In this document: one piece after another, positions 43,341-51,410 of the stretch | How positions within the stretch are numbered: position 1 is the stretch's first letter | Layout: each line of letters starts with the position of its first letter | Source: Thermococcus barophilus MP | Lineage (GTDB): Archaea; Methanobacteriota_B; Thermococci; Thermococcales; Thermococcaceae | Length of the DNA stretch: 64,000 nt | Direction of reading: 5' to 3' | Assembly (NCBI RefSeq): GCF_000151105.2 | Contig: NC_014804.1 | Span: 682,001 to 746,000, forward strand | Translations under genes and position numbers: made by a program | The notes under the pieces: model-generated | Database searches by the model: none | The model's input: the letters and a program-made list of their open reading frames with translations, nothing else | What the model was told of the DNA's origin: nothing

Positions 43341-43562
43341 TTATCTCACCTTTTTTACGACAATTCTCCAAATACCGTCCTTCTCATCAATTTCGAGGAT
43401 TTCCTGCCCAGTTTCGTCTGCTGCCAGTGCTATCTCCCCCTTGCTCAGCTCATGAGTTCCGACAATTTCTATTACTTCTCCAACCTTGGCTTTTCTCAGC
43501 GCCTTTCTGAATTCATTAAGCGGAATTGGACATTCCTTCCCGATGACATTGATTTTTATCAT
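43341..43562 (-). CDS. TusA-like sulfur carrier protein
   Basis: The 73-residue protein has the TusA/SirA signature ECPIPLNEFRKAL (cysteine about residue 10), which accepts persulfide sulfur. It overlaps the iscS 3' end by four bases and is directly followed by iscU, so sulfur probably passes through it. Confidence 0.88.
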   Translation of the reverse strand: MIKINVIGKECPIPLNEFRKALRKAKVGEVIEIVGTHELSKGEIALAADETGQEILEIDEKDGIWRIVVKKVR

Positions 43563-44707
43563 CTCTTCCCACCATAAATACTGATTTCCCTCAGTTTTTC
43601 AACGACATCCCTTATAATCTCGTATGCTTTTACTATCTCCTCTTCAGTCGTCCACTTGCTTAGGCTCAGCCTCACTGAACCGTGGGCATCTTCAAATGAA
43701 CCTCCAATGGCTCTAATCACATGACTCGGCAAAAGTTCTTGCGAATAGCATGCGGAACCAGTTGAGAACACTAACCCCCTTAGATCACAGTGAAGCAAAA
43801 TGCTCTCTCCTTCAACGTAAGCGAATGAAACGTTTACATTATTGGGAAGCCTTTTCTCTCCTCTTGGGCCGTTGAGCTTTGTATCGGGGATGCCTAAGAG
43901 CAGATCAATTAGCTTATCTCTAAGCTTTGCCATTCTCTTAGCGTCATCATAGTTTATCAGCTCTACAGCCTTTCCAAAGCCAGCTATTGCTGGAACATTT
44001 ATCATTCCCGGTCTTATTCCCCTTTCTCTCACATCTCCATCGAGAAGAGGTTTGAGCTTAACCCCATCCCTTATATAAAGTGCGGCAATTCCCTTAGGGC
44101 CGTGGATTAAGTGGGCAGTAATGCTCATTAAGTCAACATCCAGCTTTTTGACATCAATTTTGACTTTACCAAAGGCATGATTTGCGTCCAGATAAAGGAG
44201 AGCACCTTTATCGTGGACTATCTCAGATATTGCTTTGATATCTTGAATAGTTCCAATTTCAAAGTTTCCTAAGTGAGTGGCGAAGAGAATTGCGTCTTTT
44301 AAGTTGCCCTGGAGATTATCAAGGTTGATAAAACCCTCTTTATCAACACTAACTTCATAAGCTTGGAAGCCCCACTCTCCCAATCTTTTGACTGTGTTAA
44401 GAATTGCTTTTCTCTCAATTTTGCTTGCCAGGACTTTTCCTTTACCCTTAGCCCATGCTACACCTTTTATCGCCAAATTATCTGCTTCAGTTTCATCGGA
44501 GACAAAGATAATTTCCTCTGGAGAGGCATTTATTTCCCTCGCTATTTTTTCCCTCGCTTCTTCAACAGCTTCTCTGGATTCTTCGTCAAATATATGCCCA
44601 AATTCCCCTCCAGGAGTTCCATATTTTCTCTCAAAATATTCAAGCATTACCCTAATTACCTCGGGGTCTGGCTTAGTCGTGTTTGCATTGTCTAAATAAA
44701 TAACCAT
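43559..44707 (-). CDS. iscS: Cysteine desulfurase homologue (IscS/NifS) without the PLP lysine
   Basis: The 382-residue protein is a class V aminotransferase fold with YLDNANTT at the start, the H145 loop (ATHLGNFEIGTIQD) and the persulfide cysteine C320 (STGSACYS). At the PLP Schiff-base position, where IscS reads HK-x-x-GPKG, this protein reads H199-L200-IHGPKG: the lysine is replaced by leucine. The DNA around 44110 supports this reading. It may be an inactive partner of IscU or use another mechanism. The ATG at 44705-44707 follows GGGTGG. A TATA-like ACTTAAAAG lies upstream, but read-through from the regulator gene is also possible. Confidence 0.9.
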   Translation of the reverse strand: MVIYLDNANTTKPDPEVIRVMLEYFERKYGTPGGEFGHIFDEESREAVEEAREKIAREINASPEEIIFVSDETEADNLAIKGVAWAKGKGKVLASKIERKAILNTVKRLGEWGFQAYEVSVDKEGFINLDNLQGNLKDAILFATHLGNFEIGTIQDIKAISEIVHDKGALLYLDANHAFGKVKIDVKKLDVDLMSITAHLIHGPKGIAALYIRDGVKLKPLLDGDVRERGIRPGMINVPAIAGFGKAVELINYDDAKRMAKLRDKLIDLLLGIPDTKLNGPRGEKRLPNNVNVSFAYVEGESILLHCDLRGLVFSTGSACYSQELLPSHVIRAIGGSFEDAHGSVRLSLSKWTTEEEIVKAYEIIRDVVEKLREISIYGGKR

Positions 44708-44771
44708 CTTTTCCACCCGCTTATCACTAAACAAAGACCACTTTTAAGTATTGCTGGACAGAGCTGTATAG

Positions 44772-45161
44772 CTACCCAAATAAATCTATGCATATCCTGC
44801 ATTTTGATGGGTCTAATTCGGGATCAATCTTCTCATGAATAGGGCAGAGATACCCTTTTCCAAGCATTTTAAGGGCAATTTCAACGAGTTCTGCATGTAT
44901 TTGGTATTCTGTAAGCTTTTCTTTTATTATTTTATCTGCAAGTTCTTTCAGGTAATTATCTATATCCTGAAAATTGGAGATGTCAATAAAACTTCCCCTG
45001 TTCATTCTTAAATACCTTGAAACAGCTGATTGGGTAATATGTAGAAGTTCAGCGACTTGAGTTTGAGTCAATTTATGATCTCTGTACAGAATCTCAACTA
45101 ATCTCCTCCTCAGTGAGGGGTATACATACTTTGAAGCAACTTCGAAAGCATTTATCTTCAT
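44772..45161 (-). CDS. HTH regulator with C-terminal cysteine cluster
   Basis: The 129-residue protein has a TrpR/sigma-like HTH at residues 31-53 (LTQTQVAELLHITQSAVSRYLRM), a helical middle and a C-terminal C106-P-I-H109...C121-R-I-C124 group that could bind Fe-S, zinc or react with NO. A TATA box and a TATGACA-type palindrome lie directly before its ATG (45172-45187), with almost no leader, so it probably represses itself. The same palindrome is at the hcp, DUF2249 and FDP promoters. It is upstream of iscS on the same strand. I infer that it senses nitrosative or oxidative stress. Confidence 0.8.
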   Translation of the reverse strand: MKINAFEVASKYVYPSLRRRLVEILYRDHKLTQTQVAELLHITQSAVSRYLRMNRGSFIDISNFQDIDNYLKELADKIIKEKLTEYQIHAELVEIALKMLGKGYLCPIHEKIDPELDPSKCRICIDLFG

Positions 45162-45171
45162 AGTTGTTTAT

Positions 45172-45187
45172 TATGACACATGACATA
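45172..45187. promoter_or_regulatory. Operator at the regulator's own promoter (TATGACA-CA-TGACATA)
   Basis: A near-palindromic copy with one mismatch lies between the TTATATATG TATA box and the regulator start codon at 45161. Binding would block its transcription. Confidence 0.65.
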
Positions 45188-45292
45188 TATAAGGGTTTCG
45201 AAAAGAGGGTAAATTTATCCTTTATGAAAATCAAGACAAAATTTGAGACTTCTGCTAAAGCAAGAGAGTACTTGTTAGTTTATCAAAGATAT

Positions 45293-45308
45293 TATGACAC
45301 TTGTCATA
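45293..45308. promoter_or_regulatory. Orphan operator copy between regulator and hcp (TATGACA-CT-TGTCATA)
   Basis: A perfect 7-bp inverted repeat lies about 130 bp from the regulator start and 205 bp from the hcp start, with no gene of its own. The rest of 45162-45514 holds only AT-rich sequence and the two flanking promoters. It may support looping between the other sites. Confidence 0.55.
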
Positions 45309-45482
45309 TCAGACAGCACGTTAATTAATGTTTTGTTATATTATATTCCATAAAAATTCACTTTTTGCTAAATAGATGTCGGATTTTTGTTCTATAAGTT
45401 CCATTTACACACGGAAATTTTCTCTTTATGTTAAACAACCAAAAAGTTTTTATGAAGAGAAATTCATAGATAATCTTGAAAT

Positions 45483-45498
45483 TATGACACATGTCATA
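45483..45498. promoter_or_regulatory. Operator at the hcp promoter (TATGACA-CA-TGTCATA)
   Basis: A perfect 7-bp inverted repeat lies about 17 nt before the hcp GTG and about 30 nt after a GTTTTTATG TATA-like element, so it overlaps the transcription start. Confidence 0.75.
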
Positions 45499-45514
45499 GA
45501 AGGAGGGATTGAAA

Positions 45515-46882
45515 GTGATAAAGGTACCTGAGAATTTAGATATGCTCTGCAACCAGTGTTCGATGAGTTTGGCGGGAGGGTGTACTATAAGGGGAGTCTG
45601 CGGCAAGGATCCTGACCTCAACTCGCTCCAGGAGGCCCTGCTCTACGGCATAAAGGGAACATCGGCCTACTACTACCACGCCCTTGAGGTCGGCTACGAC
45701 GACCCGAGGATAGGCCACTTTTTGGCTGAGGCCCTCTACTCGACCCTGACCAACGTCAACTTCGACAAGAACCGCTTCCTTGAGCTCATCCTTGAGAACG
45801 GAAGGGTTCACCTTGAGGCGATGAAGCTCCTCGATAAGGCCTACGTTGAGACCTTCGGAAGGCCGGAGCCGGTTGAAGTCCCGACCGGAACTGCGGAGGG
45901 ACACAGCATACTCGTCACCGGCCACAGCTACAAAGCTCTCTATGAACTCCTCAGGCAGATCGAGGAGATGAGCCTTGAGGATGAGCTCAAGGTCTACACC
46001 CACGCGGAGATGTTTCCGGCACATGCATACCCCGAGCTGAGGAAGTTCAAAGCGCTCTACGGCAACTGGGGAGGCTCATGGCTCTACCAGAAGAAGGAAT
46101 TCGCGGAGTTCCCGGGCGTCATTCTGGGCACAAGCAACTGTGTCCAGCAGCCGACGAAGGCTTACGCCGACAGAATCTTCACCGTTGGGATAGCGGGCCT
46201 TGAAGGGGTTCGCCACATCGAGGACTACAACTTCGAGCCGCTCATAAAGCGCGCCCTTGAAACCCCCAGGATGGAGGCTTACGACGGCGGAAAGCTCCTC
46301 ACCGGCTTCCACCACGCCAACGTCCTTGCCATGAAGGATAAGCTCATCGAACTCATTCAGGAGGGCAAGATAAGGCACATCTTCGTCGTGGGCGGTTGTG
46401 ACACCCCGCACAAGGGTATGGGGTACTATGAAAAGCTAACCGAGCTGATTCCAAAGGATGCGCTGATACTCTCTGCGGCATGCGGCAAGTTCCGCTACAA
46501 CGCGAGGGACTACGGCACCATTGAGGGCATTCCGCGCTTTTTGGACTTCGGCCAGTGCAACAACGTGTACTCGATAATCGAGATTGCAATAGCACTCGCC
46601 AATGAACTCGGGACGGATGTGAACTCCCTGCCGGTGAGCATAGTCCTGAGCTGGATGGAGCAGAAAGCCATAGCGATACTCTACTCGCTCCTCTACCTGG
46701 GAATCAAGGGCATCTACATCGGACCAAGGCCGCCAGAGTTCCTGACTCCCAATGTGTTTGAGATCCTCAGGAGGCAGTTTGACCTCAGATTAATAAGCGA
46801 TCCAGAAAGAGATTTAAGAGAGATGCTCAACAAAGGTGTAAAAATAGAAGAGGGCTCACCTCTTGCGGAGGAGCTCGACTGA
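45515..46882 (+). CDS. hcp: Hybrid cluster protein (hydroxylamine reductase), short form
   Basis: The 455-residue protein has the N-terminal cluster cysteines C12, C15, C23 and C29, and hybrid-cluster ligands in EGHS/H, GTSNCVQQP, VVGGCDTPH, LSAACGKFRYN and GQCNN segments. It is shorter than the enterobacterial form, lacking an N-terminal helical insert, as in archaeal class III Hcp. Hcp detoxifies NO and hydroxylamine. I chose the GTG at 45515 because GGAGGG is seven bases upstream; the TTG at 45509 overlaps it. About 45600-46790 is distinctly GC-rich (60% in one 60-nt line) compared with its ends and neighbours. Confidence 0.95.
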   Translation: MIKVPENLDMLCNQCSMSLAGGCTIRGVCGKDPDLNSLQEALLYGIKGTSAYYYHALEVGYDDPRIGHFLAEALYSTLTNVNFDKNRFLELILENGRVHLEAMKLLDKAYVETFGRPEPVEVPTGTAEGHSILVTGHSYKALYELLRQIEEMSLEDELKVYTHAEMFPAHAYPELRKFKALYGNWGGSWLYQKKEFAEFPGVILGTSNCVQQPTKAYADRIFTVGIAGLEGVRHIEDYNFEPLIKRALETPRMEAYDGGKLLTGFHHANVLAMKDKLIELIQEGKIRHIFVVGGCDTPHKGMGYYEKLTELIPKDALILSAACGKFRYNARDYGTIEGIPRFLDFGQCNNVYSIIEIAIALANELGTDVNSLPVSIVLSWMEQKAIAILYSLLYLGIKGIYIGPRPPEFLTPNVFEILRRQFDLRLISDPERDLREMLNKGVKIEEGSPLAEELD

Positions 46883-46884
46883 GC

Positions 46885-47370
46885 TCATTCTTTCAATTTT
46901 TTAAGCTTTTCTAATAGTTCCCCGAACTTCTCATCTGAAAGATTGCCCAGTTCTTTGGCCTCTTTCAGTGTTATTGTCTTTGCCAGGGTCTTTCTCAGGG
47001 TCTCATCTTTGAGCGGTGTGAAGCCGTACTCGATGAGCACTTCAAGAGCTTCGGGATACCTCTCTATGAGCATCCCGACGTTTGTGTTCTCGTTTATCTC
47101 GATTTCTTTTGCACACTCCACATCGTCAAGTCCTGAAATTTCCCCGGCACTCCCATCGTTCCATATCCTCAAGATGTAGGCATCTCCAGCTTTTTTCAGC
47201 TCGTGTCTATAGCTCGCCTCCTCAAGCTTTGGGAGGATGCCTTTGAACGGTTTGTCACCTATTGCCTCGATGCCCTCTCCTTCTTTCAGATCCTTCAATG
47301 CCTCAACTATCCTTACAGCAGGTTCCGGGGGGTTTAGCCCCCTCAGGTCCAGCACAGCTTTAATCTCCAT
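46885..47370 (-). CDS. DUF2249 plus DUF1858 protein
   Basis: Residues 1-80 are a TusA-like DUF2249 domain (VLDLRGLNPPEPAVRIVEAL) that has lost the CP cysteine. Residues 95-130 are a DUF1858 domain (INENTNVGMLIERYPEALEVLIEYGF), also found at the N-terminus of ScdA/RIC iron-sulfur repair proteins. The ATG at 47368-47370 follows GGTGAAGCGA. An operator lies between its TATA box and start. It is convergent with hcp and divergent from the FDP operon. A role in Fe-S repair after NO damage is plausible. Confidence 0.85.
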   Translation of the reverse strand: MEIKAVLDLRGLNPPEPAVRIVEALKDLKEGEGIEAIGDKPFKGILPKLEEASYRHELKKAGDAYILRIWNDGSAGEISGLDDVECAKEIEINENTNVGMLIERYPEALEVLIEYGFTPLKDETLRKTLAKTITLKEAKELGNLSDEKFGELLEKLKKLKE

Positions 47371-47390
47371 TCGCTTCACCATAAACCTAT

Positions 47391-47406
47391 AATGACAAGT
47401 GTCATA
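47391..47406. promoter_or_regulatory. Operator at the DUF2249 promoter (ATGACA-AG-TGTCAT)
   Basis: A 6-bp inverted repeat (7-bp arm mismatch only at the outer base) lies just after a GTTTATATG TATA box and 20 nt before the start codon of the DUF2249 gene. Confidence 0.7.
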
Positions 47407-47453
47407 TAAACTTTGCTGGACATGAATGGGTAGAAAGGTTTAAAAGTATTGAA

Positions 47454-47469
47454 TATGACATACGTCATG
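47454..47469. promoter_or_regulatory. Operator at the flavodiiron operon promoter (TATGACA-TA-CGTCATG)
   Basis: A copy with two mismatches in the second arm lies after a GTTTAAAAG TATA-like element (about 47438-47446) and 14 nt before the FDP ATG. It is the weakest of the five copies. Confidence 0.6.
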
Positions 47470-47482
47470 AAGGTGTGTAATT

Positions 47483-48664
47483 ATGAAAGCTGTAAAAATT
47501 GTTGAAGATGTTTACTGGGTTGGAGTTAAAGACTGGAACAGGAGAATTTTTGATTCTCTAATTCCCCTTCCAGAAGGAACTTCATATAATGCCTATCTGG
47601 TAGTAGGAAGAGAAAAAACCGCCCTCATAGACACCGTAAATCCCGGTTTTGAGAGGGAGCTTGAGGAAAAAATAAACGAAATCGTAGATGTAGCCGATAT
47701 TGATTACATAGTGATGAATCACGCCGAGCCCGATCATTCCGGTGCAATTCCATACCTACTGGAGAGAAACAAAAAGGTCATCCTCATTGCAACCGAAAAA
47801 GGCGCGAACATGGCTAAAGCATACTATGATGTCCCCGATGAGAGGATTATGGTAGTGAAGGATGGCGACACCGTCTCGCTGGGAGGGAAGACCCTCAGGT
47901 TCATAGAGGCACCTTGGCTTCACTGGCCGGAGACAATGTTTACCTACCTCGTCGAGGACAAAATACTCTTTCCCTGTGACTTCTTTGGGGCTCACCTTGC
48001 TGGGGGCTTTTACGACGATGACGTGCCCGACCTTCTAACGCACGCCCAGAGGTACTTCGGGGAGATAATGATGCCCTTCTCGGCCATGGCGAAGAAAGCA
48101 CTCAAAAAGATCGAGGGGCTTGAGATTAAGATAATCGCCCCGAGCCACGGCCCGATATACAGGAATCCCAGGAGGATAATCGAGGCGTATAAAAAGTGGA
48201 GCAGTGGAGAGACGAAGGAGAAGGTTATCATAGCCTATGTCAGCATGTGGGGGGCAAACGAGACAATGGTGAGGGAGCTCGCAGCTCTCCTGACCGCTGA
48301 GGGGATAGATGTTAAGGTCTACAACCTCGTGAGCTCGGATATAGGGGAAATCGCTAAAGACCTCGTGGACTCGAGGGTGATAGTTTTAGCAGCTCCCACA
48401 GTCCTTGGAGGTGCCCACCCTCTTGCAATTTATGCCGCATACCTCGTAAAGGCACTTAGACCGCCTGCAAAATATGCAGTGATAATGGGCTCCTATGGGT
48501 GGCACGGGCGAAGTAAAGATTCCCTCCTTGAAGTGCTGAAAGGCTCAAATATAGAGCTCCTCGGGAGCCTTGAGGTTCGTGCGAGGCCGAAGAATGAAGA
48601 TTATGAAAAGCTCCGCAGGCTTGCGCTTCTTATTCAAGAAAAGGTTAGGGGTGATGCTGAATGA
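47483..48664 (+). CDS. Flavodiiron protein (NO/O2 reductase, FprA-like)
   Basis: The 393-residue protein has an MBL-type di-iron domain (H80, E82, D84, H85 in NHAEPDHSG; H147; D166; a later PSHGP histidine) followed by a flavodoxin domain (about residues 250-390). FDPs reduce O2 to water or NO to N2O using FMN and di-iron. It heads an operon with the DUF438, cupin and M24 genes, under a regulated promoter. Its middle (about 47860-48420) is more GC-rich than its ends. Confidence 0.95.
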   Translation: MKAVKIVEDVYWVGVKDWNRRIFDSLIPLPEGTSYNAYLVVGREKTALIDTVNPGFERELEEKINEIVDVADIDYIVMNHAEPDHSGAIPYLLERNKKVILIATEKGANMAKAYYDVPDERIMVVKDGDTVSLGGKTLRFIEAPWLHWPETMFTYLVEDKILFPCDFFGAHLAGGFYDDDVPDLLTHAQRYFGEIMMPFSAMAKKALKKIEGLEIKIIAPSHGPIYRNPRRIIEAYKKWSSGETKEKVIIAYVSMWGANETMVRELAALLTAEGIDVKVYNLVSSDIGEIAKDLVDSRVIVLAAPTVLGGAHPLAIYAAYLVKALRPPAKYAVIMGSYGWHGRSKDSLLEVLKGSNIELLGSLEVRARPKNEDYEKLRRLALLIQEKVRGDAE

Positions 48665-49998
48665 CCGAACTCCTAAAAAACCGTGAATATAAGAAAGAAA
48701 AAATGAAAGAACTTTTGAAGAAAATCCACAGCGGCGAGGATGTTGAAAAGCTCAAGGAGGAGTTTAAGGAACTCTTAAGGAGCATTTCTCCCCTTGAAAT
48801 ACCTCTCATTGAACAGGAGCTCGTTAAGGAAGGCATTTCAGCGAGGGACATAGCTAAGATGTGCGACATCCATGTTGAGCTCTTCAGAGAAGCAGTCGCT
48901 GGTGTTGAAAAGGAGGAAATAAAGGATATCCCCCCTGGACATCCTCTCCATACGCTCTATGAGGAGAACAGGGAAATAATGAAAGATGCGGAAATGCTGA
49001 ATCTCTATGCATCCACTCTCGCAAACACGAAGGATGAGAAGATGAGACAGGAAATTCTTGGTGTTCTCAAAGGAATAGCCAACCAACTCAGAGCTGTTGG
49101 TTTTACCCACTACAACAGGGAAGAGATGCTTATCTTCCCATACCTTGAGAGGAGAGGGATTACAGCTGTTCCAACAGTACTCTGGACAAAGCATGATGAG
49201 ATAAGAGCAATGATAAAGCAGCTAATCGAAATATTAAACAGAGAAAACGAAATGGAGTGGGAGCAATTTGTAAGTAAAGTGAAAGAAAAAGCCTCAGAAC
49301 TTTCAAGAGCTTTAGTTGACATGGTGTTCAGGGAAAACAACATACTGTATCCAACATTGAAAGCCCTGCTCTCCGAGGGAGAGTGGGTTGCCATTAAGCA
49401 GCAGGAAGAGGCAATAGGGTATTACAAAGTTAAGCCCGGAGATGAGTGGAAGCCAAGGGCAAAGCCTCTTCATCCTTATGAGATTGACCCAACCTTAACA
49501 GCTGAACAGATTTTGAGCCTACCAAAGGAAGTTCAGATGGCACTGAGGGGACAGAAGCTTGAAGGAGACAGAACTAAAGTAAAGAGGGAAGGCGACTTGG
49601 AGTTAGACACTGGCTATCTCTCACCAAAAGAAATAAACGCGATTTTCAAGCATCTTCCAGTTGATATAACCTTCATAGACAAAGATGATAGGGTGAGGTT
49701 TTTCTCAGGCGGGGACAGAATATTCACAAGAACACCCTCAGTTATCGGAAGACCTGTACAGCTCTGCCATCCACCGAAAAGTGTTCATGTAGTAAACAAG
49801 ATTCTTAGGGCTTTTAAGGAGGGCAAAAAAGACGTTGCAGAGTTTTGGATTCAGATGGGGGGGAGATTTATACATATCCGCTATTTTGCGGTCAGAGATG
49901 AAAATGGAGAGTACTTGGGAACACTTGAAGTTGTTCAAGATGTGACTGAAATCAGAAAACTTGAAGGAGAGAAAAGGCTTTTAGACTGGAGGGACTAA
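48661..49998 (+). CDS. DUF438-hemerythrin-PAS protein
   Basis: The 445-residue protein has an N-terminal DUF438 domain (about 1-80, HSGEDVEKLKEEFKELL), a hemerythrin-like domain (about 95-245; HTLYEENREI, FTHYNREEMLIFPYLE, TKHDEI and NNILYPTL give the metal-binding His/Glu) and a PAS domain (about 320-440; LPVDITFIDKDDRVRFFSGGD). Hemerythrins bind O2 or NO; PAS domains sense ligands. It overlaps the FDP by four bases, so it probably senses or delivers gas to it. Confidence 0.9.
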   Translation: MTELLKNREYKKEKMKELLKKIHSGEDVEKLKEEFKELLRSISPLEIPLIEQELVKEGISARDIAKMCDIHVELFREAVAGVEKEEIKDIPPGHPLHTLYEENREIMKDAEMLNLYASTLANTKDEKMRQEILGVLKGIANQLRAVGFTHYNREEMLIFPYLERRGITAVPTVLWTKHDEIRAMIKQLIEILNRENEMEWEQFVSKVKEKASELSRALVDMVFRENNILYPTLKALLSEGEWVAIKQQEEAIGYYKVKPGDEWKPRAKPLHPYEIDPTLTAEQILSLPKEVQMALRGQKLEGDRTKVKREGDLELDTGYLSPKEINAIFKHLPVDITFIDKDDRVRFFSGGDRIFTRTPSVIGRPVQLCHPPKSVHVVNKILRAFKEGKKDVAEFWIQMGGRFIHIRYFAVRDENGEYLGTLEVVQDVTEIRKLEGEKRLLDWRD

Positions 49999-50000
49999 AT

Positions 50001-50312
50001 GTGATTGTTGTAAAAGTGGGAGAGGCTGAGCGAATTGACAACCCTCATGGGGTTGATGTTAAAAAGCTGATTGGTATGGAGAATGTCCAGATACTCCACG
50101 TAACCCTGAAGCCTGGGGAGGGGCTTAAAAAGCACGCCACTCCTGTGGATGCCTTCCTGTACGTCATAAAGGGCAAAGGGATGGTTGAAGTTGGGGATGA
50201 AAAAGAAGAGGTTAGGAAGGCAACCCTCGTTTACCTTCCAAAGGAGGTCCCCCACAGCGTTGAGAACACGGGAAGTCTGGAGATGAAGTTCCTTGTGATT
50301 AAGGTGGGGTAA
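50001..50312 (+). CDS. Small cupin protein
   Basis: The 103-residue single-domain cupin has LKPGEGLKKHATPVDAFLYVIKGKG with H, and a later PKEVPHSVENTG histidine; the metal set is incomplete (Ala where a second His is usual). It starts with GTG at 50001, eight bases after GGAGGG. It ends where the M24-like gene begins, so it is co-translated. In this operon it may bind a metal or small ligand. Confidence 0.85.
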   Translation: MIVVKVGEAERIDNPHGVDVKKLIGMENVQILHVTLKPGEGLKKHATPVDAFLYVIKGKGMVEVGDEKEEVRKATLVYLPKEVPHSVENTGSLEMKFLVIKVG

Positions 50313-51410
50313 ATGAGGGAAAAAGCAGAGATATTTAAAAAGAGAGTTGAGAAGTTTCAAAGGCTCTTAAAGGAAAACGAGATAGATGGAGCCGTTATAA
50401 GGACACTCTCCACCTTTATTTACTTTACAGGTACCAAATGGCTTCGCCCGAGCCTCCTCATTCCTGCAGAAGGGGAGCCGGTAGTTATTGTTGCCAAAGG
50501 TGAAAAGGAACTATTTATGCAAAAGAGCTGGATTGAGAACGTTAAGGAGTTCCAAAAGACGGAAGACCTGATGGCAATGGTGACGATGTGGATTGCAAAG
50601 AACGGCTACAGCACCATCGGCATGGAGTTCTCCATCGAGAGGGATGCCTACATTCTGTTCTATGAGCTTTTCAAAAAGCTCAATCCGGGAGTGCAGATCG
50701 AAGACATCAGGCACCTTTCAATGCAGCTGAGGATGATAAAGGACGACTGGGAGCTTGAGAACATAAGAAAAGCGGGAAAAATTGCGGTAAAGGGAATGGA
50801 AGTGGCAATGGAGGAGATAAAGCCCGGGAAGAGCGAGCTTGAGATAGCTGCCGAGATTTACCGTGAGCTGATGCTCAACGGGAGCGAGGACCCGAAGGTC
50901 TATGTATCCGCAACACCGAGGGCACATGCCGAGCCCTTTAGAGACGTTAGGGTTGAGAAGGGCAGGTTTGTAACCGTGGTAATTGGCGCCGACTACAACC
51001 ATTATTATGCAAACCTGACGAGGAGCTTTTTCATCGGAGAGCCAAACGAGAGAGCAAAGAACGCCATTGAGGCAATGGAAGAAGTTCACAAAATCGCTTT
51101 GGAAAAGACCCTGCCAGGAGTAACTTTTTCCAGAGTGGAGAGAGACATAGCTGCGGTTTACAGGGAGAAGGGACTCCAAGAATACTATATAACAGGATAC
51201 ACACACGGAGTTGGACTGCTGATTGAGGAGGACCCAATAACAACCATAGTAGTTCCCCACAGGGCAATGAAAGCACGAGAAGGAATGGCGCTGGCGATTG
51301 TGCATGCACCGCTCATGGTTCCAGAGGGTGCAGTAAAGAAGGAAGACACTGTGATACTTGGCAAAAAGGTTGAAAATGTTACTCCTTTTGAGGCACCCGT
51401 GTTTCTTTAG
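50313..51410 (+). CDS. M24 fold (Xaa-Pro peptidase-like) protein lacking metal ligands
   Basis: The 365-residue protein has the prolidase layout: a creatinase-like N-domain (1-125) and a pita-bread domain. Of the five metal ligands of prolidase, only two remain (H298 in THGVG, E344 in KKEDTV). The two aspartates are V223 and N234, and the other glutamate is A332. It is probably not a metallopeptidase and may be a creatinase-like hydrolase or a binding protein. It closes the FDP operon. The DNA is locally GC-rich. Confidence 0.8.
   Translation: MREKAEIFKKRVEKFQRLLKENEIDGAVIRTLSTFIYFTGTKWLRPSLLIPAEGEPVVIVAKGEKELFMQKSWIENVKEFQKTEDLMAMVTMWIAKNGYSTIGMEFSIERDAYILFYELFKKLNPGVQIEDIRHLSMQLRMIKDDWELENIRKAGKIAVKGMEVAMEEIKPGKSELEIAAEIYRELMLNGSEDPKVYVSATPRAHAEPFRDVRVEKGRFVTVVIGADYNHYYANLTRSFFIGEPNERAKNAIEAMEEVHKIALEKTLPGVTFSRVERDIAAVYREKGLQEYYITGYTHGVGLLIEEDPITTIVVPHRAMKAREGMALAIVHAPLMVPEGAVKKEDTVILGKKVENVTPFEAPVFL

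Follow-up and report, generated by a model that had tools for sequence, protein, structure and literature searches.

The 64,000-nucleotide stretch of the Thermococcus barophilus MP genome analysed here (contig NC_014804.1, positions 682,001 to 746,000; referred to below as the window) contains, between positions 44772 and 51410, a group of genes whose promoters carry copies of the palindrome TATGACA-N2-TGTCATA, very probably the operator of a repressor-type helix-turn-helix (HTH) protein encoded at the same locus and designated REG in the following. REG (44772..45161, minus strand; Pfam HTH_24/HTH_3) is related to the HTH half of ThiR but stands alone; its 129 amino acids are made up of the HTH, a pair of long helices, and a tail with the cysteine/histidine cluster C106-x2-H109-x11-C121-x2-C124. 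On the plus strand, hcp (45509..46882; PF03063, TIGR01703) codes for a 457-amino acid hybrid cluster protein that is about 100 residues short in the N-terminal helical part (the best TIGR01703 stretch begins at profile position 121); with its C-x2-C-x7-C-x5-C spacing, as read from the translation, it is class III-like, an assignment based on length and cysteine spacing and not on phylogeny. Then follow a gene for a DUF2249/TusA-like protein with a DUF1858 domain (46885..47382, minus strand; PF08984, PF10006, PF01206) and a plus-strand operon that starts with the flavodiiron protein FDP (47483..48664; lactamase-like and flavodoxin parts; PF19583, a weak PF00258 match, and NF008887 at E=2e-84, below its cut-off). 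Its second gene, which is the first one where FDP is missing, specifies a DUF438-hemerythrin-PAS protein (48661..49998; PF04282, PF01814, PF13596), and a cupin (50001..50312, plus strand; PF07883) and a PepQ-like M24 peptidase (50313..51410, plus strand; PF00557) are encoded further downstream. The gene assignments of the initial annotation (hcp, DUF2249/DUF1858, flavodiiron operon, iscU, iscS) agree with Pfam and NCBIfam, which recognize prismane/Hcp, TusA/DUF2249 plus DUF1858, ODP-type flavodiiron, DUF438-hemerythrin-PAS, NifU_N and class-V cysteine desulfurase domains at the locus.

Five copies of the palindrome, two of them perfect, had been reported by the initial annotation, and their coordinates were all confirmed. 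Operator 1 (TATGACACATGACATA, 45172..45187; one mismatch) overlaps the TATA box of REG (TTATATAT, 45185..45192, minus strand), a position suggestive of autoregulation, and in 32 loci the orthologous site is 9-10 nt away from the start of REG. Operator 2 (perfect, TATGACACTTGTCATA, 45293..45308) is a middle site in the REG-hcp intergenic region, about 130 bp from the REG start; it is conserved at two alternative spacings from the hcp operator, 77-81 or 190-194 bp. Operator 3 (perfect, TATGACACATGTCATA, 45483..45498) is located 28 bp downstream of the hcp TATA box (TTTTTATG, 45447..45454, plus strand; conserved among hcp upstream regions), ahead of the start codon and over the expected transcription start. 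Operator 4 (AATGACAAGTGTCATA, 47391..47406; one mismatch) overlaps the TATA box (47403-47410, minus strand) of the DUF2249/DUF1858 gene, and operator 5 (TATGACATACGTCATG, 47454..47469; two mismatches) is positioned 7 bp downstream of the TATA box of the FDP operon (TTTAAAAG, 47439..47446, plus strand) and before its start codon. The TATA boxes were read in the sequence, and the palindromes are given without a strand. The initial annotation had placed four of the sites between TATA box and start codon; this holds for those at 45483 and 47454, whereas those at 45172 and 47391 overlap the TATA box itself. With up to three mismatches, the window contains 8 operator matches (mean 2.9, maximum 6 in 100 shuffles), and the whole genome (2.06 Mb) has just 4 matches with at most one mismatch, every one of them at this locus.

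At all targets, the operator covers the TATA box or occupies the interval between TATA box and start codon. At REG and the DUF1858 gene, the left arm, which overlaps the TATA box, is degenerate, and GTCAT in the right arm is invariant; the hcp, FDP and DUF438 genes have the entire, nearly invariant palindrome between TATA box and start. Such a placement over or just past the TATA box is the geometry of steric repression. Operators 4 and 5, which belong to the divergent DUF1858 and FDP/DUF438 promoters, are spaced by exactly 63 bp in 33 of 37 regions, the window included, and by 87 bp in the other 4. Looping in helical phase was considered as well; the spacings (63, 87, 77-81 and 190-194 bp) share no common phase, and we make no claim of it.

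Operator, REG and targets are inherited together. Across 94 Thermococcaceae genomes, most of which contain a REG orthologue, 152 operator matches with at most one mismatch were found versus 5 for the reversed control, and about 136 of them adjoin REG or target genes (tally of the listed places). Among the 74 good genomes, the operator is present in 55 of the 63 with REG and in 0 of the 11 without it (Fisher p=1.8e-8, a value inflated by the kinship of the genomes, although those without REG belong to two genera); the corresponding figures are 61/63 versus 1/11 for the DUF438 gene and 47/63 versus 0/11 for hcp. In these counts, the REG fragments of genomes G011 and G027 and a paralogue match in G058 were scored as absent, and the REG gene of G066, cut by a contig end, as present. 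Within 45 nt of the start codon and with up to three mismatches, the operator occurs at 35 of 41 hcp genes (27 of these sites are perfect), 37 of 37 DUF1858 genes, 11 of 11 FDP genes, 39 of 39 operons starting with the DUF438 gene, and 33 of 53 REG genes, compared with 1 of 130 control neighbours (cupin, peptidase, isc, thioredoxin and antiporter genes). The initial annotation had expected the motif to track the orthologues of the regulator in related genomes and had regarded its absence upstream of the orthologous genes as the finding that would speak against the proposal; when this was tested, the claim survived. Individual genomes add to the picture. In G017, REG has been lost and the DUF438 gene is kept together with its TFB-recognition element (BRE) and TATA box, and the operator has decayed (0 matches at up to three mismatches in 10 kb). 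In G028, hcp has been relocated away from REG, yet it bears a perfect operator; G011 and G027 have a remnant of REG and lack both hcp and the DUF438 gene. A single-protein REG query against the genome contigs yielded only 3 loci.

With respect to its ancestry, REG is, on the evidence of sequence comparison, a member of the family of ThiR-N-type HTH proteins, with a homologous HTH and following helices; we take this family to be COG2522-like. The relationship to the N-terminal HTH of ThiR was detected by sequence search, profile search and hhalign, the latter with probabilities of 97.6 for the ThiR paralogue and 98.4 for a distant stand-alone homologue. REG has no Pfam match to the ThiN domain PF10120 that is found in the ThiR paralogue, none to the Rrf2 domain PF02082 at E<=0.001, and none to cyclic-nucleotide-binding or Crp-type HTH domains. 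The initial annotation had described the C-terminal cluster as C-x14-C-x2-C; its cysteines are there, but the histidine had been missed, and all four residues (C106, H109, C121, C124) are invariant across an alignment of 53 REG orthologues. The AlphaFold2 model of REG has a pLDDT (predicted local distance difference test) of 84.7. Distant stand-alone homologues of the same class retain the cluster partly or fully, and three of them (loci L165, L169, L170) carry the palindrome CTTAACA-AT-TGTTAAG beside their own start; like the Thermococcales operator, this palindrome is built as 7-2-7, which supports REG as the protein that reads the operator. Stand-alone relatives from two other families of the class are divergent to nadA, with TATAAC-N3-GTTATA beside their start and between the two genes (L166:7667-8982, L167:6514-7823, L168:5879-7168).

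A second conserved palindrome, element 2 (TGGACATGAATGGGTA, 47417..47432, without strand; family consensus TGGnCA-N4-TGnCCA), emerged when an information profile was computed for 33 orthologous regions; it is located between the two divergent promoters (DUF1858 and DUF438/FDP), directly upstream of the BRE. In the window, the segments 44743-44760 (minus strand) and 47405-47432 match element 2 together with promoter parts. The pattern of half-site plus TATA box, TGnCCAGMAAnnnTTAwA, has 2 exact matches in the genome, in the DUF1858 and iscS promoters, and occurs 56 times in the window and 51 loci, compared with 0-4 times for five permuted controls. Element 2 is present with up to two mismatches upstream of 19 of 30 sufC-sufB operons (L236-L265; 0.03 expected), and a small TrmB-type HTH gene found in 91 of the 94 genomes (G000:C1:1747906-1748112, L268; loci L266-L295) has it in 13 of 30 own promoters (0.01 expected); both expectations derive from mononucleotide shuffles, and the sets include related genomes, so that these numbers are indicative. 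It also precedes a SufS-type desulfurase gene (L195) and an FeS_assembly_P gene (L097, L104, L143), and some other promoters match it (PfpI-like, RuBisCO-like, rubrerythrin-like). Element 2, apparently undescribed so far, is hence a candidate regulatory site of Fe-S biogenesis (SUF/ISC control), and the small TrmB-type protein is a candidate for its regulator. Upstream of the hcp BRE, the alignments of hcp upstream regions display a further palindrome (GTTAAACAACC, 45430..45440, plus strand; family version GGTTAAGAAACC) that directly abuts the BRE and differs from both the REG operator and element 2.

The arrangement of REG upstream of iscS-tusA-iscU had been taken by the initial annotation as an IscR-like layout. 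This did not hold: among the loci examined, the iscS operon adjoins REG only in the genus of the window and in G002, and none of the upstream regions of iscS, tusA and iscU has the operator (0/6 each). In the window, the iscS-like cysteine desulfurase gene (43559..44734, minus strand, likely ATG start at 44707; PF00266) is a neighbour and not a direct target; its own promoter (TGTCCAGCAATACTTAAA, 44743..44760, minus strand) consists of an element-2 half-site, BRE and TATA box, and has no REG operator. IscR-like control of iscS through the REG operator is therefore rejected, and no REG operator was seen when the sufC promoters were viewed by eye. The link to Fe-S proteins proposed by the initial annotation nevertheless exists; it is provided by element 2, which the DUF1858/DUF438, iscS and sufC promoters share, and not by the REG operator. 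IscR, an autoregulated protein with a Cys3-His ligand set, resembles REG in its position upstream of iscS in the genus of the window, but REG is not an Rrf2 protein, its operator is not found at isc genes, and the layout is not conserved.

The content of the regulon is reminiscent of bacterial defence systems against nitric oxide (NO). NsrR, an Rrf2-type regulator of bacteria whose sensor is a cysteine-ligated cluster, governs a compact repressor-type regulon including hcp and the hemerythrin-type di-iron protein dnrN/ytfE (PMC1274295, PMC9268430, PMC4432287). Here, too, hcp and di-iron NO-defence genes are found under one operator in a repressor position, but REG belongs to a different protein family, would recognize a different motif, and would act in the setting of an archaeal promoter. 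In anaerobic bacteria, the CRP/FNR-family regulator HcpR often adjoins hcp, its core target (PMC1274295); REG lacks CRP/FNR domains, and the HcpR motifs wTGTGA-N6-TCACAw and GTAAC-N4-GTTAC differ from its operator. Archaeal ThiR proteins (HTH plus ThiN) share the N-terminal HTH with REG, which has other targets, no ThiN domain, and a fully kept C/H/C/C cluster, which has been lost from the Thermococcus ThiR. OxsR of Haloferax, a TrmB-family protein, is likewise a small HTH protein of archaea that regulates a redox-stress response, but it uses a single cysteine, and its CG-rich motif is located ahead of BRE/TATA (PMC9426492); in family and site position it resembles the small TrmB-type protein tied to element 2 more than REG. 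Repair of Iron Centres proteins (YtfE/ScdA) combine ScdA_N with hemerythrin; in the protein encoded here, the hemerythrin domain is joined to DUF438 and PAS domains, and Pfam detects no ScdA_N match. In the literature searched, we found no description of a REG-like regulator or of the operator motif, no archaeal transcription factor for hcp or NO defence, and no transcription factor for Fe-S assembly genes in Thermococcales.

We conclude, on genomic evidence, that REG, hcp, the DUF2249/DUF1858 gene and the FDP/DUF438 operon form a real, compact and conserved archaeal regulon under one operator; it is best read as a functional analogue of the NsrR/HcpR systems that is built on an unrelated HTH family. 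What the sequences themselves show is the operator with its location and targets, its inheritance together with REG, and the invariance of the four ligand-type residues; from these we infer binding, repression, a bound metal, and NO as signal. A REG dimer would bind TATGACA-N2-TGTCATA at its own gene and at the three other target promoters, would block TBP/TFB (TATA-binding protein/transcription factor B) or RNA polymerase there, and would act as an autoregulated repressor; this part of the model we hold to be very probable. NO or reactive nitrogen species, or the Fe-S and redox damage that they cause, might then hit a metal centre in the Cys3-His cluster and release REG, allowing synthesis of the NO- and O2-scavenging and di-iron repair-type proteins; NO/O2 would then be lowered by Hcp, FDP and the hemerythrin protein, and autoregulation would reset the switch. 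A separate second factor acting at element 2 upstream of the BRE may tie the DUF1858/DUF438 promoters to the SUF/ISC genes. A stress role of the regulon is plausible, as its content matches that of bacterial nitrosative-stress regulons, which comprise hcp, dnrN/ytfE-type di-iron proteins and norVW (PMC1274295, PMC9268430) and have Hcp, flavodiiron and hemerythrin-type di-iron proteins as their core (PMC1274295, PMC9268430, PMC10210160); proteins joining DUF1858 and DUF2249 are also part of Thermus nitrate-respiration clusters (PMC6282519). NO, reactive nitrogen species or Fe-S damage appear to be the likeliest signal, because the targets are core members of bacterial NO regulons and the superoxide reductase gene in the genome of the window has no operator (up to three mismatches) in its surrounding 3.3 kb; we propose this signal tentatively, and slightly short of even confidence. 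The whole chain, from repression by REG to its release by NO or Fe-S damage and the link through element 2, stands in our judgement at an even balance. That REG is an NO-sensing Cys3-His metalloregulator from a family new to NO sensing, which acts at the DUF1858/DUF438 promoters with element 2, possibly read by the TrmB-type protein, in a two-input circuit that couples SUF/ISC control with nitrosative defence, is a bolder proposal that we consider doubtful.

Several points weigh against the NO-responsive repressor outlined above. The AlphaFold2 confidence for the Cys/His tail is only moderate (blocks of 63-75), a fold search of REG against the PDB gave no match at E<=0.001, the middle site at 45293 is without explanation under simple repression, and the kinship of the genomes has to be kept in mind for the co-occurrence statistics. 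No report of NO regulation of hcp in Thermococcales was found in the literature searched, and flavodiiron proteins reduce O2 too. With the same REG and operator, the signal could thus be O2 or reactive oxygen species, the oxidation of the cluster or its thiols causing release from DNA in a microaerobic defence; flavodiiron and hemerythrin proteins deal with O2, and operator-like sites precede a second flavodiiron gene (see below), but the lack of a site around the superoxide reductase gene and the fact that hcp, the target with the most perfect sites, encodes an enzyme of nitrogen-oxide metabolism according to the reviewed literature make this rather unlikely.

Somewhat less likely still is a sensor of Fe-S supply, in which apo-REG would derepress repair proteins under Fe-S shortage by an IscR-like logic. 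The invariant Cys3-His set, the proximity of REG to iscS in the genus of the window, the location of distant stand-alone homologues next to nadA and a cysteine desulfurase gene, and the occurrence of element 2 in DUF1858/DUF438, iscS and sufC promoters would all fit; the operator itself, however, is lacking at iscS, iscU and tusA (0/6 each) and was not seen by eye in the sufC promoters, and the Fe-S connection is carried by a different element. To a zinc-structured HTH protein that responds to a small molecule and uses its C-terminal cluster for structural purposes only, we assign the same low probability. The C-x2-H/C-x2-C spacing would be just as compatible with zinc in a structural site, related Cys/His clusters occur in distant ThiR-type proteins and in homologues with other contexts, and in the paralogue the same HTH is fused to ThiN, a ligand domain; REG, on the other hand, has no ligand domain beyond its two helices and the cluster, and its targets are all redox or metal proteins. 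It is most improbable that the palindrome belongs to another regulator of which REG is a mere neighbour, given the strict co-occurrence of the two across genomes, the autoregulatory site at REG, the decay of the operator after the loss of REG in G017, and the similar palindromes beside distant REG homologues.

In the REG regulon, a defined regulator comes with a precise operator and few targets, and one genome amounts to a natural knock-out, all within an order for which genetic tools exist. The regulon would be an example of an NsrR/HcpR-like circuit that archaea assembled around an unrelated HTH family, and element 2 adds a candidate cis-element for the control of SUF/ISC genes in Thermococcales.

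The second flavodiiron gene is the sole additional regulon member that looks real. Operator-like sites are present upstream of it (L080:8976, L083:10452, L141:3006); in G093 the site is just upstream of the gene and apart from REG, and weaker ones are found in group g3, where the gene is located beside REG. Other sites are few, and we regard them as chance or unproven. They include intra-coding ones (G047, G067), one at a radical S-adenosylmethionine-like gene (G007), and, in two genomes (G038, G070; L135:2969, L138:2981), operators with one mismatch that precede an FTR1-type iron permease gene by about 127 bp. Between methylthioadenosine phosphorylase-like and cdc6/orc1-like genes, a one-mismatch operator with no evident promoter is found in two genomes (G005, G007; L123:8056, L126:7988), in what is likely a replication origin region. 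In G009 (L130:8198), an operator-like site is flanked by two genes, one encapsulin-type ferritin-like and the other hydrogenase maturation protease-like.

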